Assembly: GCF_004684085.1 (NCBI RefSeq)
Contig: NZ_SRHZ01000088.1
Span: forward strand, 1 to 64,000
Reading direction: 5' to 3'
DNA: 64,000 nt
From: Stenotrophomonas maltophilia
Lineage (GTDB): Bacteria; Pseudomonadota; Gammaproteobacteria; Xanthomonadales; Xanthomonadaceae
The position numbers and the translations under genes are program-made. Of the stretch, positions 47,547 through 63,121 are shown piece after piece (within the stretch, counting starts at the first letter, position 1; each line of letters starts with the position of its first letter). The notes under the pieces are model-generated. The model did no database searches. It was given only the letters and a program-made list of their open reading frames with translations, and had not been told where the DNA came from.

Positions 47547-47604
47547 CAACGCCGGGCAGTGCCCGGCGTTGCCTTCAAACCAGTCGAGCATGGCTCGACT
47601 CTAC
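47547..47604. repeat. SMAG-type palindromes
   Basis: CAACGCCGGGCAGTGCCCGGCGTTG (47547-47571) and AGTCGAGCATGGCTCGACTCTAC (47582-47604), just after the 3' end of the GH109 gene. They mark the left edge of the GalNAc locus. Confidence 0.8.
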
Positions 47605-47614
47605 AAAGAGCAGA

Positions 47615-48970
47615 TCAGTACTTACTGTCGAACGCGAAGATCGGCTTGCGCTGCTTCCACGCGCCAGCAGTGAAGTCCGGGAACTCCAGCGTCTGGAAAC
47701 TGTTGGCAATCGACTGCTCGCTCAACGGGGTAATCGCACTCCAGGTCACCGCATCGTAGATGTCGATCGGCATCGGTGCCTTGGCCTTCAGCGCTTCCAC
47801 GAACGCATGGATCACGAACCAGTCCATACCACCATGGCCAGCGCTGGCAGCGGTGTCGGCATTCTGCTTCCACAGCGGGTGCTCGTACTCGTCCTGGTAC
47901 TTCTTGAACTCTTCCCACTGGTGCGGCGGGCTGCGGCCTTCGATGTGGATCGAGTGGTTCACGTCCATCCACAGGCCCTTGGTGCCCTGCACACGGAAGC
48001 CCATCGAGTACGGGCGAGGCAGCGAGGTGTCGTGCTGCAGCAGGATGGTTTCGCCATTCTCGCAGGCCAACGTGGTGGTGACGATGTCGCCCAGCTTGAA
48101 CTTCACCTTGGTGCTGGGATGCGTGGTGCCGCCACTCTTGGCCACGGTGTACTCGTGCAGGCCGCGCGCCTTGGTCGCGAAGGCATTGATGTGGGTGAAG
48201 CGATTGCCACGGTTGATGCCGGTGTACATCGCGCACGGGCCAATGCCGTGGCTGGGGTACAGCTCGCCATTGCGTTCCACCGAATGCTCGGTGCGCCAGC
48301 GGGCTTCGCTCCAGCCCTTGGGCCCGAACTCCACGCCGCTGTCGTAGGGCTGGTTCGGGTCGCCGGAATTGAACTTCACGCCACGCAGGTCGTGCTGGTA
48401 GCCGGCCTGCAGGTGCACCAGCTCGCCGAACAGGCCCTGGCGCACCATCTGCAGCGCGGCCATCACGTCGCGGCGATAACAGACGTTCTCCAGCAGCATG
48501 TACGGGGTGCCGGTGCTCAGCTGGGTCTTCAGCACGTCCCAGTGGTCCTGCAGGGTGATGCCGGCCACTACTTCGCAGCCCACCGCCACACCGGCCTGCA
48601 TCGCGGCAATCGCCATCGGCGCGTGGTATTCCCACGGCGTGGCGATGATCACGCCATCGATGCCCTTCTGTTCCAGCAATCGCTTCCAGGCGTTGGTATC
48701 ACGGTCCTGGCCATAGGTCTTCGGCGCCGGCTTGCCGGCCTTGGTCACCATCTCCACGGCGCGGCCGAGCATGATCGGCTCGATATCGCAGACGGCAATC
48801 ACCTCGACGTCGTCGCGGCGCACCAGTTCCTTCAGCAGCACCAGGCCACGCATGCCGGTACCGATCATGGCCAGGCGCACCTTGCGCCCGCGTGCCCATG
48901 CCGGGGTCTGCGGCAGCAGGCTGCTGGCGGCGACAGCGGCACTGGCCGCGATGAATTCCCTACGCTTCAT
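47615..48970 (-). CDS. GH109-family exported NAD-dependent glycosidase (alpha-N-acetylgalactosaminidase-like)
   Basis: A 451-residue Gfo/Idh/MocA-fold protein closely resembling GH109, enzymes that hydrolyse alpha-GalNAc through an NAD+-dependent oxidation/elimination cycle. It has a twin-arginine-type signal (MKRREFIAAS), a Rossmann motif MIGTGMRG, and family blocks ENVCYRRDVMAALQMVR, GELYPSHGIGPCAMYTGINRGNR and SAGHGGMDWFVIHAFVEAL, matching the Elizabethkingia enzyme. Export through Tat fits a cofactor-containing periplasmic enzyme. It is the last gene of the leftward arm, after the receptor, with a perfect hairpin between the two. GH109 proteins with other sugar specificity exist. Confidence 0.88.
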   Translation of the reverse strand: MKRREFIAASAAVAASSLLPQTPAWARGRKVRLAMIGTGMRGLVLLKELVRRDDVEVIAVCDIEPIMLGRAVEMVTKAGKPAPKTYGQDRDTNAWKRLLEQKGIDGVIIATPWEYHAPMAIAAMQAGVAVGCEVVAGITLQDHWDVLKTQLSTGTPYMLLENVCYRRDVMAALQMVRQGLFGELVHLQAGYQHDLRGVKFNSGDPNQPYDSGVEFGPKGWSEARWRTEHSVERNGELYPSHGIGPCAMYTGINRGNRFTHINAFATKARGLHEYTVAKSGGTTHPSTKVKFKLGDIVTTTLACENGETILLQHDTSLPRPYSMGFRVQGTKGLWMDVNHSIHIEGRSPPHQWEEFKKYQDEYEHPLWKQNADTAASAGHGGMDWFVIHAFVEALKAKAPMPIDIYDAVTWSAITPLSEQSIANSFQTLEFPDFTAGAWKQRKPIFAFDSKY

Positions 48971-48993
48971 GGCAAACATCTCTCCTCTTGGCA

Positions 48994-49017
48994 GCGTGCC
49001 GGCCGCAGCCGGCACGC
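48994..49017 (-). repeat. Perfect intercistronic hairpin
   Basis: GCGTGCCGGC (48994-49003) and GCCGGCACGC (49008-49017) form a 10-bp stem with a 4-base loop between the receptor and the GH109 gene. No T tract follows. It may stabilise the receptor mRNA and lower expression of the distal gene. Confidence 0.65.
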
Positions 49018-49035
49018 CAGGTCACGCAAACGGAA

Positions 49036-52011
49036 TTACTTGAACCGGTAACCGACAGTCACACTGTAACCACGACCGAAGATGGTCGCGTAGTCACTGG
49101 AGTCACCCAGGAAGCTGTTCGGATCGTAGAACGGCAGGCGATCGAACAGGTTCTTGACGGTAAAGCTCAGGTTCCACGCATCATCCGGGCGCCAGGTGAC
49201 GCTCATGTTGGCGGTCCACCACGACGGTGCGCCATCGCACTTGCTCTTCTGCAGGGCCAGGTAGCCGCCGGTGCAGGTTTCCTTGTTGTTGCTCACCTCA
49301 TCAACCTGGTCGGTGGCCCACTTGGTGCCGCCCACGTAGTTGACGAACATGCTGGTGGTGACCTGCTTGTAGGTCCAGTCGGCATTGAGCGTGGCACGCA
49401 GGCGCGGGTTGTTGTAGTAGCCCACCACGTCGCCGTAGTACCAGCCGTTGGCTTCATCCATGTAGAAACGGTTGCGGTTGGCGATGGTGGCGGCCAGGCC
49501 GATGTTCAGGTTGCCCCAGTCACCCAGCGAGAAGCGGCTGCGCGCATCGATGTCGAAGCCGTCGATCAGGGTCTTGCCGCGGTTCTTGTACTGGCCCACC
49601 ACGCTGGCCACATTGCCGGCGGAGTAGCCCGGCAGTGTCGACGGGCAGTTCACGCCGCTGGCCGGATCGGTGCACATTGCCGCCAGCTGCGCCAGGTTGG
49701 CGCGATCGCTGTCGGTGATCGGCGAGCGCGACATCGAGATGATGTCTTCCATGCGGCGGTAGTCCGGCGCGACGATTTCATTGTCGCGGTAGATGAACCA
49801 GTAGTCGGCCGACACCGACAGCCAGGTTGCCGGCTCGTAGACGAAGCCGAGGGTGGCGATCTTCGCCTTCTCCGGCTTCAGATCCTTGTTCGGCTGGGTC
49901 ATGCGCGCCACGGTGCGGCTGCAATCAACGTTCAGCATGTTCTTGCCCAGATCGACATCCCCAGGCCGCTGCGACTTCAGCAGCAGGTTGGCAATGGCGT
50001 TGGTCTCGTTGCAGCGCAGCTCGTCGCGGAAGCCACCCAGCTGGGCGAACACGCCGCCATTGCCGGACTCGGCCAGGCTGGGGGCGCGGAAACCGGTCGA
50101 GTAGGTACCGCGCAGCATCAGCTGGTCGAACGCCTGGTACTTGAAGCCGATCTTCGGCGCGACGTTGGCACTGAAGTTCGGGTACTTGTCCACGCGCACC
50201 GCCGCATCCAGTTCCAGCTTGTCGGTGATCGGTGCCACGGTCTCGGCGAACAGCGCGTAGGTGTTGCGCTTGCCGTCGAACCAGGAGCCGCCCTGCTGGG
50301 AGATCAGGCCGTTGGCCGCATCGGCGTTGCCCGGGGTGTAGAAGGTTTCGCGGCTGGCATTGAAGCCGAACGCGGCGCGCATTTCGCCGGCCGGCAGCTG
50401 GAACAGCGGGCCTTCGATCTTTCCGTCCAGGGTGTGCAGGCGGGTCCACGACTGGATGTCGAAGGTCGGGAACGCTTCACGGATCAATGCGGCGTTGGCG
50501 TCGCTGATCTCGCCGAACTTGTATGCCGGGTGGTCGGAGATGATCACGCGGCCGGTGGTCGGGTCGACCGAGTACGGGCCGAACGCCTTCTCGAAGCCCT
50601 TGATGTTGACGTTGATCGTCTGGTACGTGGTGGAGTGGGTGCCGGCACTGGCGAAGGCAGTCTCCCAGTTCCAGTCACCCCGGTTGCCACGCGCACCGGC
50701 CAGCACGCGGTAGCTCTTGTCGGTGTTGCGCTGGCCGAAGTAGTTCGGGCCGGCATCCTGCAGCAGGTAGTTCAGGCCGACCACGCCACCCATCATCGCC
50801 TTCATTTCCGGGCTGGCGTGGTTGTACTCGTTGTTCGGGCCCAGGAACGGGTACAGGAACTGGTTGACGTTGTTGCCGGTATTGCGCGAGAACCAGCTGG
50901 TCGGATTGCCGGTGGTGGTGCCGTAGGTGCGCGGCGTGCCGCCGTTGGCGCGCAGGTCGATGTCGGTGTAGGTCGCCTCGGCGAAGATCTCGGTGCTGTC
51001 ACCGACCAGGAAGGTGCCGTTGAGGTAGGCGGTGTTGCGCTCGGACTTGGCGCCGGCGTCAACCTCGTTGTTCATCCAGGTTTCCCAGACGCAACGTGGA
51101 CCGGCCGCTTCGCTGGTCAGCACGTTCTTGCAGCCCGGTGCAGCTTCCTGCACGCGGCGGCCGGTGACTGGATCGAAGGCGAAATAGCTGCCCGGGTTGA
51201 ATTCACCCGGCTTGCTGCCTACGCCCAGGCGCAGGTTGTTGAGGTAGTTCGGGTTGTTGACGTAGTACTGGTCGGGTCGCTTGTCATAGAAATCGGCCAG
51301 TGGAATCGCGTCGCGGCGGTACATGTTCACCGCGCCGTAGATGTTGAAGCGGTTCTCGGTCAGGTCACCGAAGCCGGCGGTGATGCTGGCCTGGCGCTCG
51401 CCGTAGGAGTCGATGCGCGAGGAGGTGTCGTTGGTGAAGCTGACCTCGGCCCCCTGGAAGTTGCGCTTGGTGATCACGTTGATCACGCCGGCCACCGCGT
51501 CGGTGCCGTACACGGCCGAGGCGCCGTCGGTCAGCACTTCCATGCGCTCGATGGCTGCAGCTGGGATCGCGTCGATGTTGACGAACTGGGTCTGGAAGCC
51601 AGCCGGTGCACCGTAGTACGACAGGCGGCGACCGTTCAGCAGCACCAGCGTGCCCTGCGCGCCCAGACCGCGCAGGTTGGCCTGCGAGGCACCATCGGAA
51701 CCGGTGAACAGCGAACGTGCATCCTGCTGCGCCGGGCGGGCGGCCGGCAGGTTGTCGAGCACCTGCAGCAGCGTGCGCGCACCCATGTTCTGGATGTCCT
51801 GCTTGCTGATCACCTGCACCGGCGATGCGGTTTCAACGTCGGTGCGGCGGATGTTGGAGCCGGTGACCTCGATGCGGGCCAGGTCGGTGGCCTTGTCCTT
51901 GCTCTCCTGGGCGAAGGCAGGAACGGCGACCGACAGCAGCGCGCCGGCAATGGCCAGCGTCAGCGGAGCGATCGTACGACAGGGGGGGCGGTGGTGGCGT
52001 GCGGGCAACAT
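49036..52011 (-). CDS. TonB-dependent receptor of the GalNAc locus
   Basis: A 991-residue TonB-dependent receptor. Start at the ATG at 52011, with AGGAGAG upstream. Signal peptide about 1-34 (ending AFA), plug domain about 45-170 (IEVTGSNIRRTDVETASPVQVIS, LVLLNGRRLSYYG, ASAVYGTDAVAGVINVI), then a large barrel ending in YRFK. The GSNIRR plug start is typical of the big carbohydrate-linked receptors of xanthomonads. Lying between two predicted alpha-GalNAc-releasing enzymes, it probably imports GalNAc-containing glycans or glycopeptides across the outer membrane. Substrate inferred from context. Confidence 0.92.
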   Translation of the reverse strand: MLPARHHRPPCRTIAPLTLAIAGALLSVAVPAFAQESKDKATDLARIEVTGSNIRRTDVETASPVQVISKQDIQNMGARTLLQVLDNLPAARPAQQDARSLFTGSDGASQANLRGLGAQGTLVLLNGRRLSYYGAPAGFQTQFVNIDAIPAAAIERMEVLTDGASAVYGTDAVAGVINVITKRNFQGAEVSFTNDTSSRIDSYGERQASITAGFGDLTENRFNIYGAVNMYRRDAIPLADFYDKRPDQYYVNNPNYLNNLRLGVGSKPGEFNPGSYFAFDPVTGRRVQEAAPGCKNVLTSEAAGPRCVWETWMNNEVDAGAKSERNTAYLNGTFLVGDSTEIFAEATYTDIDLRANGGTPRTYGTTTGNPTSWFSRNTGNNVNQFLYPFLGPNNEYNHASPEMKAMMGGVVGLNYLLQDAGPNYFGQRNTDKSYRVLAGARGNRGDWNWETAFASAGTHSTTYQTINVNIKGFEKAFGPYSVDPTTGRVIISDHPAYKFGEISDANAALIREAFPTFDIQSWTRLHTLDGKIEGPLFQLPAGEMRAAFGFNASRETFYTPGNADAANGLISQQGGSWFDGKRNTYALFAETVAPITDKLELDAAVRVDKYPNFSANVAPKIGFKYQAFDQLMLRGTYSTGFRAPSLAESGNGGVFAQLGGFRDELRCNETNAIANLLLKSQRPGDVDLGKNMLNVDCSRTVARMTQPNKDLKPEKAKIATLGFVYEPATWLSVSADYWFIYRDNEIVAPDYRRMEDIISMSRSPITDSDRANLAQLAAMCTDPASGVNCPSTLPGYSAGNVASVVGQYKNRGKTLIDGFDIDARSRFSLGDWGNLNIGLAATIANRNRFYMDEANGWYYGDVVGYYNNPRLRATLNADWTYKQVTTSMFVNYVGGTKWATDQVDEVSNNKETCTGGYLALQKSKCDGAPSWWTANMSVTWRPDDAWNLSFTVKNLFDRLPFYDPNSFLGDSSDYATIFGRGYSVTVGYRFK

Positions 52012-52155
52012 CGGGGTTCTCTCCTGGCAGGGGTGCGGCGCAAAAAGTGAGCGCGTGGGCGTTCGGCGGGCAAAACGCTCCCGGGCCACGGCCCCCACAG
52101 TCGTGGTGAAGCCGTAGTCGGAATGGGCGGGGGGAGGAGCGGTGTTACGAGGGGG

Positions 52156-55100
52156 TCATGGGGCGACGATGCTGGCGGAGTCGCCCTCCTGGCCGATCAG
52201 CACGGCGTTGGCCCAGTTGGCACAGACCTGGGCGGGTTGGCTGCCCTGCGCACCCAGCGTGCGCAGGCTCAGGGTGGAAAGGCCTCGGATGTCCAGCTCC
52301 GGCTTGACCACGCCGGGCGCCTTCACCAGGCCACTGTCGTACAGCAGGCGGTTGTCACCCCAGACCTGGAACTGCAGGCCACCGGCAGTGCGGCAGGCGT
52401 CGTCGATGCCGAGGTCGGCGCGCAGCAGGTGCCAGCCGCCCTGCAGGCGCAGGTCGATGCGGCTGGTGGCACCGACGCCCAGGCCACGGCGGAACTGCAG
52501 GCCGTTCATGCGCATGCCGGCGTCGCCACGGAACGACTGGTCGGTGCGCACCTGGCTGGCCAGCGCGGCCGGCACCGGCAGCTCGGAGAGATAGCGCTGC
52601 CGGGCCGGTCGCTCCGGTTCCTGGTGTTCAAGAATGTGGAAGGTGGACAGCGCGATCGGGCCGACGTCGCGCGGCTGCAGCGCATCGAAGGCGCGGGCGC
52701 TGCCCTGTGCGGCCGTGACCATCGGGTCGGTACTGCTGGCGCCGTCGCCTTCGGGGTTCTGCACGCTCAGCACGCGGAAGCGCAGCAGGCGGCCGGCGTG
52801 GGCCGGGAAGTCGATGCGCTGCACGCCTTCCTTCAGCTGCAGGCGGCCACGGGCGATCGGCTCGCCCCACTCGCCGTTGCTGTCACCCAGGTAGACCTCG
52901 TAGTCGCGTACCTGGCCGTGCTTCCAGTTCTTGTCGTTGCGTGGCGCGATGTCGATGCCATCGATCATCCTGCGCTCGCCGAAGCCCACCACCCATTCGT
53001 GGGCACCGGTGCGCACGGCCTGGTTACGCACACTGCGGAACCAGGTGGCCGGATCGTCGTCGAAGGCATTTTCCAGCGCATGGCCGGGTTCTTCGGCCGG
53101 GCGGTTGACCACCAGCAGGCTGTCGGCCGGCAGTTCGCGGCCCAGCACCGGCGCAGCCGGATAGGCATCGTCGGCCACCGCCGCAGCCACCGCGAAGTCC
53201 AGTTGCAGCTGCAGCGGCTGGCGGATGTCCTGGGTGGTGGTACGCACGTGCAGCGTGCCACGGCGCTCCTTGGCATCGAAGTACCAGCCTTCGCTGGCGC
53301 CGTTGAAGGCGGCGGCATCGGCCAACGCGGGCAGCGCGCGGCCACCGGCCTGCACCACACGCGGCGCCTGCCGGCTGAGCACGCGCAGGCCATAGCGACG
53401 CTGCGCCAGCTGGCCGTTGTACTGGCCCTGCACCGCATCGATCTGCACCTGCACCGGGCCACTACCCTGCACCGGCGCCTGCACGGTGATCTTCTGCGTG
53501 CTCGACTCGCCCTGCTGGTAGCGGCGCGTGTTGCCATCGTCTTCGTACAGCGTGTACTGCGAATCACCCTGCGGGTACAGGTCGAAGGTCACCTCATCGA
53601 GGGGTTTCTCGCCGTCAAACAGCATCGACGGGTACATCGGCAGGATGGCACCGGCGCGCACGAACACCGGCAGCGTGGCCAGGTCCACCTGGCGGTCCAG
53701 CTGACGGCCATCGGCGGTGGCCTGCACGCGGCGGCCATCCCAGTAGTCGATCCAGCCGCCGGCGGGCAGATGGATGTCGCGGCGCCAACCACGGCTGGCC
53801 GCCTGGCTGCGGTACACCGGCGCCACCAGCAGGTCGCGGCCGAGCAGGAACTGGTACTTGTAGGTCTCATCCTGCGCGTGCGGATCGCGCGGGTTGTCCC
53901 ACATCAGGCCACGCACCGGCGGCGCGCCGGTCTGTGCAGCCTCGTGCACCAGGCCGTACATGTATGGGGTCAGGCGCATCTTCAACTTCAGGTAGTCGCG
54001 GTTGATGCTGCGATAGGGCTCGTCGTACCACCACGGGTGCTTGCGTGCGTTCGACGACCAGCCGCTCATGCCCATCAGCACCGGGGTGAACGCCTTCCAC
54101 TGCAGGTCGCGGGTGAAGGTTTCGGCGCTGCCGCCGAAGATCGCATCGACATCGCCGCTGGCGTAGGCCATGCCGGACAGGCCCGAACCGACCAGGGTCG
54201 GCACGTGCCAGCGGATGTAATCCCAGCTGCTGCTCTGGTCGCCGGTCCAGGCCACCGCATAGCGCTGGATGCCGGCCCAGCCCATCACCGTCCACAGGAA
54301 CGGGCGCGAATCGGAATTGTCGAGGATGCCGTTGAATGCCTGACGGTTGGCATCCATCGCGAACTGGTAGCCCTTGCCGGTCCAGGCCACGTCCAGCTTC
54401 TGCACGCGGCTGCCGGCCTTGCCCACTTCCCAGGCGATCTTGTCGACGCCGTTCTCGGTCCACAGACCGGTGCGGAAACCGTACTTGGCCAGGCCCTGCA
54501 CGGTTTCCGGCAGTTTCTTGTAGCCACAGCCGTAGCCGTCGTTCGGCAGGATCCAGCCACCGGGCATGTCGTGGGCGCGGTACTGCTTGGCCACGCTGTC
54601 GATCACGTCGGGCGTGGTGCCGGTCGGGCCATCGCTCCAGCCTTCGGGGACGGTGCCGGGCTTCTTGCTGTTGTCGCCATCGTTGTAGCAATCAGCATCG
54701 CCGTAGGACAGCGCCCAGCGCGCGACCATGTTGGGGCGGCCGGTCAGCTGGGTGTAGCGCTCGATCAGCTTCGGCAGGTCGGCGCCGACGAAGTAGTACG
54801 CATCGAAGCGGTCTTCGCGGTGCAGCAGCGTGACCTGGTCGGCCTCGCGCAGATCGTAGCTGCCATCGCTCCAGGTATTGCGCAGCATGCCCCAGCCACG
54901 GCTGCTCAGCAGCATCGGTGCGGGGCTGGGGCGGTCGCCCTCTTCCCAACCGCCGGAATAGGACACTTCCAGCTCGCGGCCCTTGAACTGGTAACGACCG
55001 TTCTGCTGGCCGCCACCGAAGTAGCCTTCATCGGCCTGCGAGGACAGCACCTGCACGCTCTGCGCGGCATCCAGGTCCAGCGGCTGCAGTTCCTGCCACA

Positions 55101-55515
55101 GCGTGGTGGGCTGGCCGTTGTCCAGGCGTTCCAGGCGCATGCGCAGCGGCTGCCGCTGTACATGCAGCACCAGTGCATCGGTGCGCACGCGGATTTCCTG
55201 CGCGTCTTCTTCCAGCTGCGCCTGCACGTTCGCCTTGGGCTGCGGCAGCACGATCGGTGCAGCCTTGTCGCCGGCACCGGTCAGCGTGCCGTTGCGGCCG
55301 GCCTGCACGCGGATGATGTCGGTGGCCGGCAGTTCGATGCGGATGCGCGCGCCCTTGTCGGTCTGCAGGTCCCAGCCCTGCACGCCGTCGCGGCTGGCGC
55401 TGGCGGCGACCGAACGCAGGTTGCCGACCGGCTCGGCCCGGGCCGGCATGGACGCCAGCATCAATGCCGGCAACAGGGCCAGCATCAGCGGCGAGCGACG
55501 AACGCAGATTTCCAC
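52156..55515 (-). CDS. Exported GH31-family glycosidase with CBM32-like and NPCBM modules
   Basis: A 1119-residue secreted enzyme starting at a GTG at 55515 with GGGAG five bases upstream. Signal peptide about 1-27; N-terminal GH31 beta-sandwich about 40-250; catalytic barrel about 260-560; a discoidin/CBM32-like module about 775-890; a C-terminal NPCBM module about 990-1119. The usual GH31 nucleophile motif is replaced by KLDVAWTG (D375), with D426 in WTGDQSS as probable acid/base. This is the pattern I associate with GH31 alpha-N-acetylgalactosaminidases. NPCBM modules often accompany alpha-Gal/GalNAc enzymes. It heads the leftward arm, divergent from agaS. Confidence 0.88.
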   Translation of the reverse strand: MEICVRRSPLMLALLPALMLASMPARAEPVGNLRSVAASASRDGVQGWDLQTDKGARIRIELPATDIIRVQAGRNGTLTGAGDKAAPIVLPQPKANVQAQLEEDAQEIRVRTDALVLHVQRQPLRMRLERLDNGQPTTLWQELQPLDLDAAQSVQVLSSQADEGYFGGGQQNGRYQFKGRELEVSYSGGWEEGDRPSPAPMLLSSRGWGMLRNTWSDGSYDLREADQVTLLHREDRFDAYYFVGADLPKLIERYTQLTGRPNMVARWALSYGDADCYNDGDNSKKPGTVPEGWSDGPTGTTPDVIDSVAKQYRAHDMPGGWILPNDGYGCGYKKLPETVQGLAKYGFRTGLWTENGVDKIAWEVGKAGSRVQKLDVAWTGKGYQFAMDANRQAFNGILDNSDSRPFLWTVMGWAGIQRYAVAWTGDQSSSWDYIRWHVPTLVGSGLSGMAYASGDVDAIFGGSAETFTRDLQWKAFTPVLMGMSGWSSNARKHPWWYDEPYRSINRDYLKLKMRLTPYMYGLVHEAAQTGAPPVRGLMWDNPRDPHAQDETYKYQFLLGRDLLVAPVYRSQAASRGWRRDIHLPAGGWIDYWDGRRVQATADGRQLDRQVDLATLPVFVRAGAILPMYPSMLFDGEKPLDEVTFDLYPQGDSQYTLYEDDGNTRRYQQGESSTQKITVQAPVQGSGPVQVQIDAVQGQYNGQLAQRRYGLRVLSRQAPRVVQAGGRALPALADAAAFNGASEGWYFDAKERRGTLHVRTTTQDIRQPLQLQLDFAVAAAVADDAYPAAPVLGRELPADSLLVVNRPAEEPGHALENAFDDDPATWFRSVRNQAVRTGAHEWVVGFGERRMIDGIDIAPRNDKNWKHGQVRDYEVYLGDSNGEWGEPIARGRLQLKEGVQRIDFPAHAGRLLRFRVLSVQNPEGDGASSTDPMVTAAQGSARAFDALQPRDVGPIALSTFHILEHQEPERPARQRYLSELPVPAALASQVRTDQSFRGDAGMRMNGLQFRRGLGVGATSRIDLRLQGGWHLLRADLGIDDACRTAGGLQFQVWGDNRLLYDSGLVKAPGVVKPELDIRGLSTLSLRTLGAQGSQPAQVCANWANAVLIGQEGDSASIVAP

Positions 55516-55837
55516 ACGGACTCCCAACCCGTTCACCGGGCGTTTCGAAAGCGGTTGGGCCGACTCTAGGGCAGCGATTCGAAAGATGTCAACAAATTGA
55601 AAGGAAAAAGGAAGATATATTCCATTGAAACGAAAGTTGTTGCATTGCAATACTTTGTGTAAGCGCTTGCAGCCGCCTGTTAAGCATTGTGCGATACGGC
55701 ATCTGGCCCTTCCTTTCGTTTTCCTGGGCACCTCGCAGCGGGAAAAGCCGCCTCGCTATTTTCTTTCTTTTTACTTTCGATGTTTGACATTTCGAAAGAA
55801 AACGCAGATGGTGCGCTGGCCCAACTGGAACCTCTGA
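55516..55837. promoter_or_regulatory. Divergent control region of the GalNAc locus
   Basis: This AT-rich 322-bp region carries repeated CTTTC/GAAAG pentamers: GAAAG at 55581, 55599, 55632 and 55794, CTTTC at 55713, 55763 and 55774. They are partly in direct repeats as in DeoR-family AgaR operators. Near the centre lies a near-perfect palindrome TGTAAGCGCTTGCA (55658-55671) of the type bound by LacI-family regulators. Control of both arms by the locus-encoded AgaR, with a possible second regulator encoded elsewhere, is inferred. Confidence 0.6.
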
Positions 55838-56992
55838 ATGGACGTCACCCTGCTTTCCGATGTGTCCGCCTGGCAGCGCCTTGGCGGAGCCGATACCGCT
55901 ACCGAAATCGCTCAGCAGCCTGCGCTGTGGGACGCCCTCGCACAGGACCTGTCGCGTGCCCGCGACCGCCTGCAGGCCTTCCTCGGCGACAGCCTCAACG
56001 ATCCCAATCAGCGCGTGCTGTTCACCGGCGCCGGCAGCTCCGGCTTCATCGCCGAAATGGTGGCCGACGCGATCAATGCGCAGTGGCCGGCCGATGTGCG
56101 CGTGGTGCACACCACCAGCCTGCTGACCCACCCGGCGCTGTACCTGCAGCGCGACCGCCCGACCCTGCTGGTCTCGTTCGGCCGCAGCGGTTCCAGCCCG
56201 GAAAGCGTGGCGGCAGTGGACCGCGTGCGCAGCGACGTGGATGACGCACGCTTCCTCGACATCACCTGCAACGCCGATGGCGAACTGGCCCGTCGTGGCG
56301 CCGGCCGTGCCGATACCTGCACCCTGCTGATGCCGTCGGCCAGCTGTGATCGCGCCTTCGCCATGACCAGCAGCCTGACCTGCATGCTGCTGGCCGCACT
56401 GACCGTGTTCGATCGTTCGCCATGGGATGCGCGCGTGGCGCGCCTGAAACAGATCGCCGCGCTGGCCCGCGAAGGCCAGGCGCAGTGGGATGCACCGGTG
56501 GCGGCGCTGGCGCAGCGCCCGTTCAACCGCATCATCTACCTCGGCAGCGGCCCGCTGGAAGCGCTGGCACGCGAGTGCGCGCTGAAGGTGCTGGAACTGA
56601 CCGCCGGCCGCGTGCTGGCGCTGGCCAACACCCCGCTGGGCTTCCGTCATGGCCCGAAGTCGACGCTGGATGGCAACACCCTGGTGGTGGTGGTGCGCAG
56701 CGTGCAGCCGCTGGCGCGCCGCTACGAACAGGACCTGCTGGAAGAACTGCGCCGCGACGGCGTGGCCGGCCAGGTACTGGCGATCGGCCCGCATTCGGAC
56801 ATTGGCGCCGATGACGAATACACCCTCATCGTGCCGGCACTGGACGATCCGTGGCTGGCGCCGGTGTGGCTGGGCTTCGCGCAGCTGTTCGCGCTGCAGC
56901 GCTCGGCCGCGCTTGGCCTGACCCCGGACAACCCGTTCCCGGACGGCACCGTCAACCGCGTCGTCAAGGGCGTCACCATCCACCATGGCTGA
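55838..56992 (+). CDS. agaS: SIS-domain galactosamine-6-phosphate deaminase/isomerase
   Basis: A 384-residue protein with two SIS (sugar isomerase) domains, about 45-190 and 210-370, matching AgaS. It converts galactosamine-6-phosphate to tagatose-6-phosphate and ammonia. Substrate-loop signatures are LFTGAGSSGFIAE and VSFGRSGSSPESVA in the first domain and YLGSGPLEALARECALKVLE and GFRHGPKS in the second. It is the first gene of the rightward arm and overlaps agaK by eight bases. Confidence 0.9.
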   Translation: MDVTLLSDVSAWQRLGGADTATEIAQQPALWDALAQDLSRARDRLQAFLGDSLNDPNQRVLFTGAGSSGFIAEMVADAINAQWPADVRVVHTTSLLTHPALYLQRDRPTLLVSFGRSGSSPESVAAVDRVRSDVDDARFLDITCNADGELARRGAGRADTCTLLMPSASCDRAFAMTSSLTCMLLAALTVFDRSPWDARVARLKQIAALAREGQAQWDAPVAALAQRPFNRIIYLGSGPLEALARECALKVLELTAGRVLALANTPLGFRHGPKSTLDGNTLVVVVRSVQPLARRYEQDLLEELRRDGVAGQVLAIGPHSDIGADDEYTLIVPALDDPWLAPVWLGFAQLFALQRSAALGLTPDNPFPDGTVNRVVKGVTIHHG

Positions 56993-57923
56993 GCTGATCG
57001 CCCACGCCTGCTACGGCATCGACATCGGCGGCACCAAGATCGAGCTGGTGGCGTGCGATGCGGCGATGCAGGTCACCTGGCGCCGCCGCGTGGGCACCCC
57101 GCAGGGCGACTACGACGGCTTCCTGCAGGCGGTGGTCGCGCTGGTGGCCGAGGCGGACGCCACGCTCGGCCGCAGCGATGCGGCCATCGGCATCGCCCTG
57201 CCCGGCGTGCGTGACCGCCGCAGCGGCCGCCAGCTCAGCGCGAACGTGCCTGCACTGACTGGCCAATGCGTGGCGCAGGATCTGCAGGCGCGCCTGCAGC
57301 GTCCGTTGCACTTCGGCAACGATCTGCAGTGTTTTGCTTTGTCTGAAGCACACGGCGGTGCCGCCGACGGCTACCCCAGCATGTTCGGCGCCATCCTCGG
57401 CACCGGTGCCGGCGGTGGTTTCTGCCTGCAGGGCCGGCTGCTGTCCGGCTTCAACGGCCTGGCCGGCGAATGGGGCCACTGGAGCGTGCCCGGCCATCTG
57501 CTGCAGCGCCACGGCCTGCCGCTGCTGGACTGCGGCTGCGGCCTGCAGGGCTGCGTGGAGCGCTATGTGTCCGGCAGCGGTGTAGCGATGATCGAACGTC
57601 ATCTCGGTGGCAGCGCCACCGACGCCAGCGCGGTGATTGCCTTGGCCGAAGCCGGCGATGCGCGTGCGCGCAAGGCGCTGGACATCCACCGCGATCTGCT
57701 CGGCCACAGCCTGGCCGCACTGGTGCTGGCGCTGGACCCGCACGTGATCGTGCTCGGCGGCGGCCTTTCCCAGTATGCGCCGCTGTACCAGCAGCTGCCT
57801 GCAGCCATTGCCGCGCATCTGTTCAACGGTGTGCAGGTACCGCCCATCGTTCCGCCGCGCTTCGGCGATGCCGGTGGCGCACGTGGTGCCGCTCTGCTCG
57901 CCTGCCAACCCTCGTTTTCCTGA
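56985..57923 (+). CDS. agaK: ROK-family N-acetylgalactosamine kinase
   Basis: A 312-residue ROK sugar kinase: phosphate loop YGIDIGGTKIEL (residues 10-21), catalytic Asp in HFGNDLQCF, ROK signature GAILGTGAGGGF and the zinc-binding CxCGxxGC motif in LDCGCGLQGCVERY. Locus context, with agaS and a 6-phosphate deacetylase and no phosphotransferase system, points to phosphorylation of GalNAc imported by a permease. An N-acetylglucosamine kinase role is the main alternative. It overlaps agaS by eight bases and precedes agaZ by 17. Confidence 0.88.
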   Translation: MAELIAHACYGIDIGGTKIELVACDAAMQVTWRRRVGTPQGDYDGFLQAVVALVAEADATLGRSDAAIGIALPGVRDRRSGRQLSANVPALTGQCVAQDLQARLQRPLHFGNDLQCFALSEAHGGAADGYPSMFGAILGTGAGGGFCLQGRLLSGFNGLAGEWGHWSVPGHLLQRHGLPLLDCGCGLQGCVERYVSGSGVAMIERHLGGSATDASAVIALAEAGDARARKALDIHRDLLGHSLAALVLALDPHVIVLGGGLSQYAPLYQQLPAAIAAHLFNGVQVPPIVPPRFGDAGGARGAALLACQPSFS

Positions 57924-57940
57924 TTGACCGGAGCTTGACC

Positions 57941-59275
57941 ATGTCCCCGTTGCAGACTCTGCTTGCCTCCCACCGCACCGGTGCCAACGTCGGCCTGTAC
58001 AGCGTCTGCTGCAGCAATGAGCAGGTGCTGCGCGCGGCCATGCACGTGGCCCTGGCACATGGCACCGTGCTGCTGATCGAGGCGACCTCCAACCAGGTCG
58101 ACCAGTTCGGCGGCTACACCGGCATGACCCCGCCGCAGTACCGCGATTACGTCGGTACCCTGGCCGACGAAGAAGGCTTCCCGCGCGAGCGGCTGATCCT
58201 GGGTGGCGACCACCTCGGCCCAAATGCCTGGCAGAAGCGCCCGGCCGCCGAAGCGATGACCCACGCCCGCGTGCTGATCGAAGCCTACGTCGCCGCCGGT
58301 TTCCACAAGATCCATCTGGACTGCAGCATGTCCTGCGCGGATGACCCGGTGCCGCTGCCCGATGCCATCGTCGCCGCGCGTTCGGCCGAGCTGGCTGAAA
58401 TCGCCGAGCGCACCGCCGGCGAACATGGCTTGCCGCCGCCGGTCTACGTGATCGGTACCGAAGTACCGATCCCCGGCGGCGAAGCCTCGCTTGCAGAGGG
58501 CCTGCAGGTGACCACGCCGGTCGCCGCCGCGCAGACCCTGGCCATCCACCAGCAGGCGTTCGACACGCCGCAGCTGCGCGATGCATGGCAGCGCGTGATC
58601 GCGATGGTGGTGCAGCCGGGCGTGGACTTCGACCACAGCAGCGTGCACGAATACGACGCGGCCGCCGCCAGCACGCTGGCCGGTTTCCTCGAACAGCAGC
58701 CGCGCATCGTGTTCGAAGCACACTCCACCGACTACCAGCGCGAAAGCGGCCTGCACGCGCTGGTGCGCGACCACTTCGCCATCCTCAAGGTCGGCCCGGC
58801 GGCCACCTTCGCCTACCGCGAAGCGCTGTTCGCGCTGGCCGCGATCGAGGCCGAGCTGCTGCCGGCCGCGCAGTGCTCGCGCCTGCCGCAGGTGCTGGAC
58901 GAGGTGATGGTGGCGCAGCCGAAGTACTGGCAGTCCTACTACCAGGGCGATGATGCCGCGCTGCGCCTGCTGCGCAGCTACTCCTTCAGCGACCGTTGCC
59001 GCTACTACTGGGGCGAGCCGGCGCTGCTGCAGGCGGTGCAGACCCTGTTCGCCAATCTGGAACAGCATGCGCCGCCGCTGGTCCTGCTCAGCCAGTACCT
59101 GCCCGAGCAGTACCGCGCCGTGCGCGAAGGCAGCCTGGCCAACACCCCCACCGCACTGGTGCAGCACCGTATCGGCCTGTGCCTGGGCGAGTACGCCCGC
59201 GCCTGCAGCGCCAACCAGGCCGGAACCCGCACGCAGAACGCAGGCTCGGCTGCCGGCGTTCCTGCGAACGGCTAA
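57941..59275 (+). CDS. agaZ: Tagatose-bisphosphate aldolase subunit AgaZ/GatZ-type
   Basis: A 444-residue protein of the KbaZ/GatZ/AgaZ family. Conserved blocks are LLIEATSNQVDQFGGYTGM, LGGDHLGPNAWQ, KIHLDCSMSCADD, VIGTEVPIPGGE and FEAHSTDYQ. Such proteins are described as the non-catalytic subunit of class II tagatose-1,6-bisphosphate aldolase; other roles in the tagatose step have been proposed. No catalytic aldolase subunit (agaY-like) and no separate tagatose-6-phosphate kinase lies in the window. GGAG precedes the ATG at 57941. The C-terminal 20 residues are Ala/Thr-rich and weakly conserved. Confidence 0.88.
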   Translation: MSPLQTLLASHRTGANVGLYSVCCSNEQVLRAAMHVALAHGTVLLIEATSNQVDQFGGYTGMTPPQYRDYVGTLADEEGFPRERLILGGDHLGPNAWQKRPAAEAMTHARVLIEAYVAAGFHKIHLDCSMSCADDPVPLPDAIVAARSAELAEIAERTAGEHGLPPPVYVIGTEVPIPGGEASLAEGLQVTTPVAAAQTLAIHQQAFDTPQLRDAWQRVIAMVVQPGVDFDHSSVHEYDAAAASTLAGFLEQQPRIVFEAHSTDYQRESGLHALVRDHFAILKVGPAATFAYREALFALAAIEAELLPAAQCSRLPQVLDEVMVAQPKYWQSYYQGDDAALRLLRSYSFSDRCRYYWGEPALLQAVQTLFANLEQHAPPLVLLSQYLPEQYRAVREGSLANTPTALVQHRIGLCLGEYARACSANQAGTRTQNAGSAAGVPANG

Positions 59276-59302
59276 TCTCTACCTTTTCCCGCGAAACCGA
59301 GA

Positions 59303-60085
59303 ATGGCCATGCGCAACACCCGCTCCCGTCGGCAACAGATCCTGCAGCTGCTGATCGAGCACGGCTCGGTGCAGGTGGCCGATCTGGTCGAGCGCTTCGG
59401 CGTGTCGGCGGTGACCATCCGTGCCGACCTGACCCACTTCGAGTCGCAGGGCCTGGCCAACCGAACCCATGGCGGCGCCACGCTGGTACGTACGCCGCCG
59501 CAGGAACAGGACATCCATGAAAAGGATGCGCTGAACCTTCCGCTGAAAGAATCGATCGGCGCGCGCGCCGCGCGCCTGGTGCAGCCCGGCGACAACATCA
59601 TCATCGACTCCGGCTCGACCACGATGACGCTTGCACGCCATCTGCGCGCGCATCGCGACGTGACGGTGATGACCAACGGCCTGAACATTGCCTGGGAACT
59701 GGCCAATGCAGGGGGCATCACCGTGCTGCTGACCGGCGGCCTGCTGCGCCAGCAGTCGCTGTCGCTGCAGGGCAGCCAGGCCGAAGCCAGCCTCAACTCG
59801 TACAGCTTCGACACCCTGTTCCTGGGCGTGGATGGCCTGGACCTGCAGTTCGGGCTGACCACCCATGACGAGGCCGAAGCCCGCCTCAATCACCGCATGG
59901 TCGAACGTGCGCGCCGCATCGTAGTGCTGACCGACGCCTCCAAGTTCGGCCGCGTCAGCCTGCACCGCATCGCACTCCTCGATCAGATCCACGCCATCAT
60001 CACCGACGCCGGCATCGACGACGCAACCCGTGAAGGGCTGCAGCGGTTGGGCATTGAAGTGATCATCGCCGAGCCCGCCGCATGA
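59303..60085 (+). CDS. agaR: DeoR-family regulator of the GalNAc locus
   Basis: A 260-residue DeoR-family repressor: N-terminal winged helix (about 8-60, with VADLVERFGVSAVTIRADL and the family signature NRTHGGA), then a sugar-phosphate-binding domain (about 80-250) with IIIDSGSTTMTLA, MTNGLNIAWELA and FLGVDGLD. Gene position between agaZ and the deacetylase supports AgaR, which responds to GalNAc or GalN phosphates and binds CTTTC-type repeats. Those are abundant in the divergent control region. An in-frame ATG two codons downstream is an alternative start. It overlaps the deacetylase gene by four bases. Confidence 0.9.
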   Translation: MAMRNTRSRRQQILQLLIEHGSVQVADLVERFGVSAVTIRADLTHFESQGLANRTHGGATLVRTPPQEQDIHEKDALNLPLKESIGARAARLVQPGDNIIIDSGSTTMTLARHLRAHRDVTVMTNGLNIAWELANAGGITVLLTGGLLRQQSLSLQGSQAEASLNSYSFDTLFLGVDGLDLQFGLTTHDEAEARLNHRMVERARRIVVLTDASKFGRVSLHRIALLDQIHAIITDAGIDDATREGLQRLGIEVIIAEPAA

Positions 60086-61194
60086 CCGACACCCGTTCCC
60101 TGCAGGGCCGCATCCTCACGCCACTGGGTTGGCGGCGTGGCACTGTCCACTTCGATTCGCACGTGCGCCAGCTGCAGGTGGACGACCACAGCGGCGCTGA
60201 CGACCTGCAGCTGCCGGTGATCCTGCCCGGCTTCATCGACCTGCACGTGCACGGTGCGGCCGGCGTGGATCTGATGCAGGGCGGCGAGGTGGCACGCACC
60301 ATCGCCCGCACCCATCTGCGCTTCGGCACCACCACGCTGCTGGCCACCACCATGACCGCCGGGCTGGACGAGATCGAGCACGCGCTGCAGGGTGTGGCCG
60401 CCACCATGGCTGCGCCCGATGCCGAGGCCGCCTGCATCGCCGGCGTGCATCTGGAAGGGCCGTTCATCAGCCCGCAGCGGCTGGGCGCACAACCCAACCG
60501 CACGATCGAGGCGACGCTGGGGCTGGTGCAGCAACTGCATGCGCTGGCGCCGATCAGGGTGATGACGCTGGCACCAGAGATCGGCGAGCACACCGCGCTG
60601 ATACCCGCGCTTTCGGCAATGGGCATCCGTGTGCAGCTGGGCCACAGCGCCGGTACCTACGAAGAGGGTGTTGCTGCGCTGCAGGCAGGTGCGTCCGGCT
60701 TCACCCATCTGTTCAACGGCATGACCGGCGTCGATCACTATCGCCCGGGCATTGCGGCGGCGGCACTGGCGCATGCGCAGTACGCCGAGATCATTCCTGA
60801 CCTGCAGCACATCCATCCCGGCGTGATCCGCTTGGCCGCGCGCGCGATTCCACGCCTGTACGCGGTGACCGACGCCACCGCCGCCACCGGCATGCCCGAT
60901 GGCGAGTACGCGCTGGGCGAACAGCGCGTGCACAAGTGCGGCGGCTGTGTGCGACTGGCCACCGGTTCGCTGGCCGGCAGCGCGCTGACCATGGACCAGG
61001 CGCTGCGCAACCTGGTGCGCGTCGGCCTGGGGCTGGCCGACGCCTCGCAGCGTGTTTCTACTTTCCCGGCCGACTACCTGGGCCTGAGCGATCGCGGCCG
61101 CATCGCGCCCGACGCCCGTGCCGACCTGGTAGTGCTGGATGCGGAACTGCGCTTGCAGCAGGTGGTGGTGGGCGGGCGCGTAGTCGATTTGTAG
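60082..61194 (+). CDS. agaA: N-acetylgalactosamine-6-phosphate deacetylase (NagA/AgaA family)
   Basis: A 370-residue amidohydrolase of the NagA/AgaA family that removes acetate from N-acetyl-amino-sugar 6-phosphates. The metal site is shown by the HxH in GFIDLHVHGAAG (H55, H57), GVHLEGPFI (metal-bridging Glu), LGHSAGTYEEG, FTHLFNGMTG and the catalytic Asp in VTDATAATGMPDG. Sequence alone does not separate GalNAc-6-P from GlcNAc-6-P activity; the neighbours agaS, agaK and agaR favour GalNAc-6-P. Its TAG stop codon is the first part of a GTAG repeat. Confidence 0.88.
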   Translation: MTDTRSLQGRILTPLGWRRGTVHFDSHVRQLQVDDHSGADDLQLPVILPGFIDLHVHGAAGVDLMQGGEVARTIARTHLRFGTTTLLATTMTAGLDEIEHALQGVAATMAAPDAEAACIAGVHLEGPFISPQRLGAQPNRTIEATLGLVQQLHALAPIRVMTLAPEIGEHTALIPALSAMGIRVQLGHSAGTYEEGVAALQAGASGFTHLFNGMTGVDHYRPGIAAAALAHAQYAEIIPDLQHIHPGVIRLAARAIPRLYAVTDATAATGMPDGEYALGEQRVHKCGGCVRLATGSLAGSALTMDQALRNLVRVGLGLADASQRVSTFPADYLGLSDRGRIAPDARADLVVLDAELRLQQVVVGGRVVDL

Positions 61195-61331
61195 AGTCGA
61201 GCCATGCTCGACTCACCGCGCAGCGCGCGGTGCGGGGAACCTCGATATCGGAACGAAGAGCAGTCGAGCATGGCTCGACTCTACAGAAAGCAATCTGCGA
61301 CGAACCGTCGCCGGGCATGGCCCGGCGCTAC
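61191..61331. repeat. SMAG pair and single SMAG unit
   Basis: GTAGAGTCGAGCCATGCTCGACT at 61191 and its inverted copy ending GACTCTAC at 61284 face each other, followed by CGCCGGGCATGGCCCGGCGCTAC at 61309-61331. They fill the gap between the deacetylase gene and the sugar porter and could uncouple expression of the two. Confidence 0.88.
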
Positions 61332-61345
61332 CACAGGAACTGCCG

Positions 61346-63121
61346 ATGACCGCAAGCACCGCTCCGCGCTGGCCCGTACGCTACCTGCTCTTCATCGGCG
61401 GCCTCGGTGGCCTGTTGTACGGCATCGATATCGGCATCATCGCCGGTGCCCTGCCCTACCTTGAGGCCACCGCCAGCCACGCCTGGCAGCTCAGCAGCCA
61501 GCAACTCGGCTTCGTGGTGGCGGCGGTACTGCTGGGCAGCGTGTTGTCCTCGCTGTTCGCCGGCATGGTCGCCGACCTGATCGGCCGTCGCGGCGCGATG
61601 CTGCTGGCCGGCCTGCTGTTCACCGCATCGATCCCGATCATGGCGCTGGCCTCCGGCTACACCCCGCTGCTGCTGGGGCGCCTGCTGCAGGGCATCAGTG
61701 GCGGGCTGATCGGTGTGGTCATTCCGCTGTACCTGGCCGAAGTGCTCAGTCCCGAACGACGCGGGCGCGGTGCGGCCATGTTCCAGTTGCTGCTGACCGT
61801 TGGCCTGGTGCTGGCGGCCCTGATCGGCCTGTACCACGCCCACGCAGTGGATGCCGCCACCGAAGCCGTGCGCTCGCTGCCGGTGGCACAGCAGGCGCAG
61901 GAACTGTTCACGGTGAAGGACCACGCCTGGCGCACCATCTTCTGGACCTGCCTGGCGCCGGGCCTGCTGTTCTGCGCCGGTATCTTCTGGCTGTCCGAAT
62001 CACCGCGCTGGCTGGTGCGCCGTGGCCGCATCGAGGATGCCCGTCGCAGCCTGCAGCGCGTCCTCCCCGCTGCCGACGTGGAGCCTACGCTGGCGCAGAT
62101 CCAGGCGCCGGAATCGAGCAGCAGCGGCAAGCGCGACCCCCTGCTCAGCCGCCGCTACGTGGTGCCGTTCGTGCTGGCCTGCGTGGTGCTGGCCTGCACC
62201 CAGGCCACCGGCATCAACTCGGTGCTGGCGTACGCGGTGAACATCCTCAACCAGGCCGGTCTGTCCGGCTCGGTGGCCAACGGCGCCGACGTGGCGATCA
62301 AGCTGCTCAACGCGGTGATGACCGTAGTTGCGCTGCTGCTGGTCGATCGCAAGGGCCGCAAGTTCCTGCTGATGCTCGGCAGTGGCGGCATCTGCGTGGC
62401 CCTGCTGGCGGCGGCCACGCTGTTCTTCCAGGCCGAGCGCGGCCGCGCCGATGTGCAGCCGCAGCTGCAGGCGGCGGTCAGCGGCGACGGCCTGCGGCTG
62501 GTGCTGGACGACGCGCAGTGGCAGCGCCTGGGCGGTGGCATCGACAGCGAAGGCCGACCGATGCAGCTGACGGTGTCGTACGCCTACGGCGACTTCACCA
62601 ACGTGCGCGCCCTGCGCAGCGACAACCTGACCGACCGCGAGCTGCGCGTGGAACGCGCGGGCACCGTGCAGCCGGACAGCGTCATCGGCGCGTTCTTCCG
62701 CACCCTGCACCTGAACCCCTTCGCCGACCCGGCCAGCGCCACGCACGCACCGCTGCGCATCGAACAGGCGCACATCGGACCGATCCCGCCGCCCGCGCAT
62801 GGCTGGGCCGTAGCCACCTGCATCCTGGTGTTCGTGGCCTTCTTCGCCGTGGGCCCGGGCGTGTGCGTTTGGTTGGCGCTGTCCGAGCTGATGCCCAACC
62901 GCATCCGCTCCAATGGCATGAGCATCGCGCTGCTGATCAACCAGTTCGTATCGACCACCATCGCCGCGATCTTCCTGCCCACGGTGGGGCACTACGGCTA
63001 CGCCAGCATGTTCCTGTTCTGGGCCGGCTGCACCTTCGTGTTCTTCCTGGTGGCCGCGTTCTGGCTGCCGGAAACCAAGGGCAAGTCGCTGGAAGAGATC
63101 GAAGCGCGGTTCGCCCGGTAA
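61346..63121 (+). CDS. Sugar-porter-family MFS transporter with a large periplasmic insertion
   Basis: A 591-residue sugar porter (MFS): FIGGLGGLLYGIDIGIIAGA in helix 1, DLIGRRGA between helices 2 and 3, SPERRGRGA after helix 4, SESPRWLVRRGR after helix 6, QATGINSVLAY in helix 7, and the C-terminal WLPETKGKSLEEIE. Between helices 9 and 10, where the family has a short loop, about 124 residues (362-485) are inserted, mostly beta-like, facing the periplasm. Family members are usually 460-500 residues. It is the likely inner-membrane GalNAc permease of the locus, although SMAG repeats separate it from the operon. Confidence 0.88.
   Translation: MTASTAPRWPVRYLLFIGGLGGLLYGIDIGIIAGALPYLEATASHAWQLSSQQLGFVVAAVLLGSVLSSLFAGMVADLIGRRGAMLLAGLLFTASIPIMALASGYTPLLLGRLLQGISGGLIGVVIPLYLAEVLSPERRGRGAAMFQLLLTVGLVLAALIGLYHAHAVDAATEAVRSLPVAQQAQELFTVKDHAWRTIFWTCLAPGLLFCAGIFWLSESPRWLVRRGRIEDARRSLQRVLPAADVEPTLAQIQAPESSSSGKRDPLLSRRYVVPFVLACVVLACTQATGINSVLAYAVNILNQAGLSGSVANGADVAIKLLNAVMTVVALLLVDRKGRKFLLMLGSGGICVALLAAATLFFQAERGRADVQPQLQAAVSGDGLRLVLDDAQWQRLGGGIDSEGRPMQLTVSYAYGDFTNVRALRSDNLTDRELRVERAGTVQPDSVIGAFFRTLHLNPFADPASATHAPLRIEQAHIGPIPPPAHGWAVATCILVFVAFFAVGPGVCVWLALSELMPNRIRSNGMSIALLINQFVSTTIAAIFLPTVGHYGYASMFLFWAGCTFVFFLVAAFWLPETKGKSLEEIEARFAR

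Follow-up and report, generated by a model that had tools for sequence, protein, structure and literature searches.

The catabolism of N-acetylgalactosamine (GalNAc) in Proteobacteria is organized in an aga regulon, which Leyn et al. in 2012 are said to have described with agaS, agaK, agaZ, agaR, a deacetylase, a permease and a TonB receptor. We analysed a locus of this type at positions 47615-63121 of a 64,000-nucleotide stretch of Stenotrophomonas maltophilia DNA (this whole stretch is called the window; it belongs to contig C86, in a 4.63 Mb assembly listed as 100% complete with 0.32% contamination). The genes of a family 109 glycoside hydrolase (GH109), a TonB-dependent receptor (TBDR) and a family 31 glycoside hydrolase (GH31), on the minus strand, are divergent from agaS-agaK-agaZ-agaR-nagA and the gene of a major facilitator superfamily (MFS) porter, on the plus strand. 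Compared with the aga regulon as reported, the window appears to add hydrolases of the GH109 and GH31_18-like types, and searches for a class II aldolase gave no match. All the genes that an earlier sequence-only reading had named in this region, in two divergent arms, were recovered by profile matches.

Two other described systems are close to this locus (published statements cited here are taken from the portions of the papers available to us). In Bacteroides thetaiotaomicron, the polysaccharide utilization locus (PUL) BT4240-50 together with BT3169 provides, as in the window, GH109 and GH31 alpha-N-acetylgalactosaminidases, an outer-membrane importer, an MFS protein and a GalNAc kinase, but with SusCD instead of a lone TBDR, a kinase of another family, the GH31 outside the PUL, and an extra GH2 and M60 glycopeptidase (PMC11992087). 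For Stenotrophomonas sp. SKA14 in co-culture with a diatom, an enrichment of genes in four PULs was described in 2020; one of these loci, a GalNAc PUL, comprises an MFS porter, a tagatose-pathway gene and a glycoside hydrolase bearing a carbohydrate-binding module (PMC8027193). With the same genus and the same three components as in the window, this PUL is very probably the orthologue of our locus. Its authors call it homologous to an S. maltophilia K279a operon "verified experimentally" for GalNAc catabolism, citing Leyn 2012, the title of which, as given in their reference list, sets the experiments in Shewanella (PMC8027193). The last enzyme is labelled there AgaY, an aldolase, whereas in the window this gene is agaZ, and the genome gave no match to a class II aldolase. 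The genus Stenotrophomonas thus far has a published GalNAc locus; what we add, as far as our literature searches reached, is the argument for a GalNAc pathway that lacks an aldolase and has AgaZ as its last enzyme, together with the connection to HC7-like glycopeptidases.

It appears likely to us that the locus as a whole serves the AgaR-controlled harvesting and catabolism of alpha-linked GalNAc from glycopeptides, terminated by AgaZ. With somewhat more reserve, we favor a GalNAc catabolism of Xanthomonadaceae that proceeds without aldol cleavage, AgaZ being a terminal stand-alone 4-epimerase, with O-GalNAc glycopeptides of soil and water as the wider target, opened in relatives by HC7-like glycopeptidases. 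The gene identities, catalytic residues, gene order and conservation of the boxes were observed directly, as was the fact that no class II aldolase or LacD was found. Together with the affinities of the hydrolases and a common AgaR-type box in both arms, the genes give strong support to the GalNAc acquisition first proposed from the sequence.

In the proposed route, the TBDR would take GalNAc-bearing glycopeptides into the periplasm, where GH31 would release the peptide-linked core GalNAc, and the Tat-exported GH109 other terminal alpha-GalNAc as well as that of small products. Imported by the MFS porter, GalNAc would be converted by AgaK into GalNAc-6-phosphate, the NagA-type enzyme would strip the acetate, AgaS would deaminate and isomerise the product to tagatose-6-phosphate, and AgaZ would turn this into fructose-6-phosphate by C4 epimerisation. 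Since AgaZ would epimerise at C4, a tagatose-6-phosphate kinase and a tagatose-bisphosphate aldolase would be unneeded. AgaR would repress both arms, through CTTTC boxes overlapping divergent -35-like elements, and an amino-sugar phosphate would lift this repression.

Candidate hydrolases and their target

The two hydrolases of the minus arm are the following.

52156..55515, minus strand: exported GH31 (GH31_18-like) candidate alpha-N-acetylgalactosaminidase with F5/8C and NPCBM modules; matches solved structures and keeps the Asp of KLDVAW and WTGDQ
47615..48970, minus strand: candidate GH109 alpha-N-acetylgalactosaminidase with a Tat-type (RREFIA) signal; PF21252 at 271 bits, match to 2ixa

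Among solved structures, the GH31 protein matched the Enterococcus faecalis GH31 alpha-N-acetylgalactosaminidase (6m76, 7f7q, 7f7r) with 358-362 bits and the next GH31 chain with 168, which places it nearer to characterised alpha-N-acetylgalactosaminidases, and to GH31 subfamily 18, than to alpha-glucosidases or xylosidases. The Asp mutated to Asn in 7f7r and to Ala in 7f7q corresponds to the Asp of KLDVAW in the window protein, WTGDQ is common to both enzymes, and the two Asp residues are invariant in 13/13 aligned rows; the Asp of KLDVAW would be the catalytic nucleophile, and that of WTGDQ is presumably the acid/base. Over its full length, F5/8C and NPCBM modules included, the protein shares 75-89% identity with 12 relatives of the family. 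The other hydrolase combines PF01408 (NAD-binding Rossmann fold) with PF21252 (GH109 C-terminal domain) and belongs to GH109. Its best solved relative is the Elizabethkingia alpha-N-acetylgalactosaminidase 2ixa (492 bits), and an AGHGGMD loop is retained, corresponding to the GGHGG-type loop of GH109 enzymes. A twin-arginine-type motif (RRx-hydrophobic) was present close to the N-terminus in all 65 named relatives examined, and such a signal would fit the export of a folded GH109 with its NAD bound. The earlier claim of two candidate alpha-N-acetylgalactosaminidases from unrelated families is in agreement with these data, as each protein finds its best match in a solved enzyme of that activity.

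We sampled 297 genomes of the family (own genome included) and 369 genomes of the class. In the family, GH109 occurs in 44 of the 50 genomes carrying this GH31 and in 17 of the 247 others (P values for this co-occurrence ignore relatedness). In Akkermansia, a GH31_18 enzyme cleaves peptide-linked GalNAc and the two GH109 enzymes take alpha-GalNAc substrates except Tn (PMC11790493). In B. thetaiotaomicron, GH109 prefers blood group A and also cleaves Tn, and GH31 is active on desialylated mucin but leaves Tn and blood group A uncleaved (PMC11992087). These characterised relatives differ roughly as would be expected from the proposed split of labour between GH31 and GH109.

An O-linked GalNAc target, also suggested earlier from the window, gains indirect support from the loci of named relatives (the best 80 of 206 related stretches: 25 Oxalobacteraceae-type and 55 others). 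A DUF5077-DUF3472 protein is encoded in or near the cassette in 21 of the 25 Oxalobacteraceae-type loci (one partial at the end of its stretch) and, of the other 55 loci, in L108 and L112; L111 carries another DUF3472 protein, which has a ricin-type lectin domain. One of these proteins was modelled.

L137:8658-9962: DUF5077-DUF3472 lipoprotein of a relative, Duganella; predicted structure with pLDDT 80.8

The model matches 4qhw with Z 46.6, a structure whose deposited name is that of a putative sugar hydrolase, and could be superposed on the HC7-glycopeptide complex with a VIA-align Z of 26.6 (239 aligned, rmsd 3.1); glutamic peptidases and jelly-roll beta-glucanases come next with Z 13-15, and jelly rolls that are not peptidases reach Z 13.5. 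HC7 is a di-glutamate mucinase that cleaves mucins bearing Tn and T glycans (PMC13003899). The Glu of its LFQEDWL motif, mutated in 8pn3 and 8pn5 (Ala in 8pn5), corresponds to Glu341 of the L137 protein, which is invariant in 21/21 rows. This predicted HC7 fold with one key Glu suggests that the cassette is generally directed at O-GalNAc glycopeptides, and makes the DUF3472 lipoproteins candidate environmental O-glycopeptidases. The window contains no such gene; a search for DUF3472 in the own genome gave no match, but no control matched either, so that its absence is not established.

Alternatively, the target could be a polysaccharide with GalNAc residues, from algae, fungi or bacteria, on the oligosaccharides of which GH31 and GH109 would be exo-acting. 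The environmental distribution of the carriers and the enrichment of the GalNAc PUL in diatom co-culture (PMC8027193) are in line with this possibility, which we nevertheless regard as tentative, since GH31_18 enzymes act on peptide-linked GalNAc (PMC11790493), the loci of relatives hold an HC7-like O-glycopeptidase candidate, and the protein families identified in and around the locus include no endo-acting polysaccharide enzyme.

AgaZ and the end of the pathway

The last step of GalNAc catabolism would depend on one gene of the plus arm.

57941..59275, plus strand: AgaZ (GatZ/KbaZ family), proposed stand-alone tagatose-6-phosphate 4-epimerase; PF08013 at 618 bits, TIGR02810 at 603 bits, above cut-off

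AgaZ matched the structure 2fiq with 414 bits. The GatZ residues Cys20, Glu44, Asp87, His88, Glu171, His257 and Lys279 correspond to Cys23, Glu47, Asp90, His91, Glu174, His261 and Lys283 of the window protein, and these seven active-site residues of GatZ/KbaZ are kept in 124/124 AgaZ rows (some rows coming from the same strains), in agreement with the 2fiq alignment. In Escherichia coli, deletion of gatZ abolished tagatose formation, and expression of gatZ or kbaZ with a phosphatase restored it, a result from 2025 read by its authors as the in vivo C4 epimerisation between fructose-6-phosphate and tagatose-6-phosphate by GatZ/KbaZ; the Zn-dependent retro-aldol site is their hypothesis (PMC11907403). 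These E. coli proteins are of the AgaZ family and have all seven named residues in common with it, but they are annotated as partners of the class II aldolases GatY/KbaY, whereas AgaZ of the window seems to be alone.

No match to the class II aldolases (KbaY/AgaY/GatY; PF01116) was obtained in the own genome, 11 of 14 controls being positive. Above the cut-off, PF01116 was detected in 3/297 family genomes, none of which has this GH31; at E 0.001 it was detected in 5/297, where the GH31-carrying genomes G016 and G091 showed only fragments of 20-22 bits, under the cut-off. The LacD-type aldolase (TIGR01232) was found in 0/297 family genomes, with 2 of 14 controls positive. AgaZ is retained in 47 of the 49 loci fetched from the family (these stretches exclude the window's genome, are each of at most 20 kb, and in some cases end within or near GH109). 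As the carriers gave no match above the cut-off for a class II aldolase and none for LacD, and the seven residues are kept, the simplest reading is that AgaZ yields fructose-6-phosphate directly. The pathway probably ends, unlike the textbook one, with the epimerisation of tagatose-6-phosphate by AgaZ.

In a classical end, tagatose-6-phosphate would be phosphorylated by the phosphofructokinase (PFK) of the genome, or by an unseen kinase, and cleaved by a class I aldolase, AgaZ being a tagatose-6-phosphate kinase or a relic subunit. The own genome does have a class I aldolase and a PFK-family gene, in principle able to run these steps, which counts against an AgaZ-terminated pathway, and a 2025 review of GalNAc use gives a kinase plus an aldolase, and cites the proposal of AgaZ as tagatose-6-phosphate kinase (PMC12118421). 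We consider this ending improbable, because AgaZ keeps the proposed Zn ligands and the base of a retro-aldol epimerase, and persists in nearly all the fetched loci though the carriers have no class II aldolase above the cut-off and no LacD. Three functions have been ascribed to AgaZ/KbaZ/GatZ, those of an aldolase subunit, a kinase and an epimerase. Carriers in which AgaZ lies beside GalNAc genes, with no KbaY-type or LacD aldolase found, make this question directly testable; if the epimerase reading is true, the Xanthomonadaceae would be a natural knock-out settling the function of AgaZ/KbaZ.

Regulation, transport and the other enzymes

The other elements of the locus, including two candidate operators, are listed below.

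59303..60085, plus strand: AgaR, DeoR-family repressor; NF040755 at 328 bits, above the cut-off of 260
55578..55603, minus strand: candidate AgaR operator/promoter box of the GH31 arm, CTTTC-N6-TTGACA-T-CTTTCGAA; 2 matches in the window against 0 expected
55774..55798, plus strand: candidate AgaR operator/promoter box of the aga arm, CTTTCG-N3-TTTGACATTTCGAAAG; 1 match against 0 expected
55838..56992, plus strand: AgaS, predicted galactosamine-6-phosphate deaminase/isomerase (SIS family); TIGR02815 at 405 bits, cut-off of 529 not reached
56985..57923, plus strand: AgaK, ROK-family kinase, N-acetylgalactosamine being its probable substrate from the context; PF00480 at 215 bits
60082..61194, plus strand: NagA-type N-acetylhexosamine-6-phosphate deacetylase; TIGR00221 at 227 bits, just above the cut-off of 225.65
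49036..52011, minus strand: TonB-dependent receptor, candidate importer of GalNAc glycopeptides; PF00593 and PF07715
61346..63121, plus strand: MFS sugar porter, probable GalNAc permease; TIGR00879 at 271 bits, above cut-off

Leyn 2012 reportedly describes AgaR boxes of the CTTTC type, present in several copies at regulated promoters. In the window, the two candidate boxes share one design, each over a TTGACA, and are oriented oppositely between the arms. The 337 bases from 55501 to 55837 hold 8 CTTTC/GAAAG, compared with a shuffle mean of 1.54 and a maximum of 6 (0/2000 shuffles reach 8). The core of the AgaS-side box was found upstream of AgaS in 47/47 and 51/51 Xanthomonadaceae-type loci (two sets, the second from named relatives) and in 17/25 Oxalobacteraceae-type loci, the pattern having been derived post hoc from the same loci, with sets that overlap in strains and exclude loci without AgaS. 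As a check of specificity, this core gave 0 matches away from AgaS upstream regions in 2.64 Mb of loci. The mirrored CTTTC-TTGACA boxes fit a control of both arms by a single AgaR switch, and we propose them as candidate operators.

Distant copies of GH109 were also considered as members of the AgaR regulon and rejected, as they are diverged paralogues (70-74% identity to the GH109 of the window) with no clear AgaR box. In 12 such stretches (11 from genus g16 and 1 from g17), the copies have 0-5 CTTTC/GAAAG within 420 bases upstream, three of them with 4 or 5, and no TTGACA-centred box was seen by eye, no pattern search having been made.

Several of our results weigh against the proposed system. 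The distant GH109 copies of these 12 relatives, diverged and lacking a clear AgaR box, are one of them. The excess of CTTTC/GAAAG is weaker in the narrower interval 55681-55837, where the count of 4 is reached by 12/2000 shuffles, and the GH31-side box pattern occurs in 30/47 and 42/51 of the Xanthomonadaceae-type loci and in 0/25 of the Oxalobacteraceae-type ones. AgaS and AgaK are both under curated cut-offs. Finally, some parts are absent from a number of the fetched stretches, NagA being present in 37/49, the MFS porter in 23/49 and GH109 in 27/49; among the open reading frames (ORFs) listed for the loci without nagA or the MFS gene, no conclusive candidate for a replacement was seen.

The closest NCBIfam model of AgaK is a GlcNAc kinase (299 bits, cut-off 380). 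A second form of the AgaS family, with about 438-465 bits, is found mostly in genomes without this GH31 (e.g., G145). A search with the whole model of the MFS porter returned sugar porters and other MFS proteins among the matches listed. Relative to GlcP (4lds), this porter has an insert of about 117 residues between TM9 and TM10 (residues about 362-483), which is kept in relatives of both bacterial families and is predicted to form a small alpha/beta region; from the topology of sugar porters, we take it to be on the extracytoplasmic side.

In the minus arm, the listed ORFs cover 47615-49015 (GH109), 49036-52098 (TBDR) and 52156-55731 (GH31). Four listed ORF starts are too early, the likely starts being 48970 for GH109, 52011 for the TBDR, 55515 or 55485 for GH31, and 57941 for AgaZ.

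Distribution and habitat of the carriers

This GH31 is present in 50/297 family genomes and in 14/17 genomes of the genus, own genome included, and GH109 in 61/297. An AgaS-family gene (E 1e-40) occurs in 75/297, including all 50 with GH31, none above the curated cut-off; in two GH31-carrying genomes, G205 and G225, it is located only away from GH31. Among the 49 fetched loci, the TBDR was found in 44, AgaS in 47, AgaK in 47 and AgaR in 48. In the class, this type of GH31 was detected in 3/369 genomes, all of the own genus, under a strict threshold and with a family-level query that would miss distant GH31_18.

The comparison of gene order with other genomes, which had been suggested from the window, shows that the arrangement recurs in relatives more than by chance and is largely kept across two bacterial families, the exceptions being Rudaea L133 and Thermomonas L123. 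The closest named relative, among the best 80 of 206, is S. maltophilia MDMC339, with a GH31 99% identical; in other strains labelled S. maltophilia, the identity of GH31 is 79 to 97%. Named carriers include Stenotrophomonas, Lysobacter, Pseudoxanthomonas, Luteimonas, Thermomonas, Vulcaniibacterium and Rudaea, and, in the Oxalobacteraceae, Massilia, Duganella, Janthinobacterium, Rugamonas and Pseudoduganella. These genera presumably live mostly in soil, on plants and in freshwater, habitats that were partly taken from the names of the strains.

The proposal, made from the window, of a trait by which an opportunist of mucosal surfaces would exploit host mucin is very unlikely to hold: the enzyme types do match those of mucin O-glycan degraders and the nearest named relatives (best 80 of 206) are S. 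maltophilia, but the carriers are largely of the environmental genera above, the SKA14 GalNAc PUL genes are enriched in diatom co-culture (PMC8027193), and no M60-type mucinase was matched in the own genome, with a positive E. coli control. A two-hydrolase alpha-GalNAc cassette that is widespread in environmental bacteria is, when present in an opportunist, no sign of mucosal adaptation.

Growth data are in print for some of these bacteria. Stenotrophomonas aracearum uses GalNAc in Biolog plates, which the available portion of the paper does not report for Xanthomonas hawaiiensis (PMC11035887). In a second paper, GalNAc use is positive in 3 of 9 table columns, weak in 2 and negative in 4, the portion available giving the columns without their names (PMC9797726).

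Some loci depart from the common form. In L133 (Rudaea), the TBDR-GH31 pair is flanked on its other side by diverged AgaR, AgaS and AgaZ (43, 35 and 50% identical), the usual cassette being absent. In L078 (G205), GH31 is in two pieces in different frames, with GH109 adjoining and no aga genes in the stretch, which suggests a decaying copy or an assembly error. L117 is a contig labelled Bacillus subtilis SK7B5 with a Stenotrophomonas-type locus, probably from a mislabelled or contaminated assembly. In the window itself, short GTCGAGCATGGCTCGAC-type palindromes are located at 61191-61346 and 47580-47614; they resemble, as we take it, the REP-type repeats of S. maltophilia.

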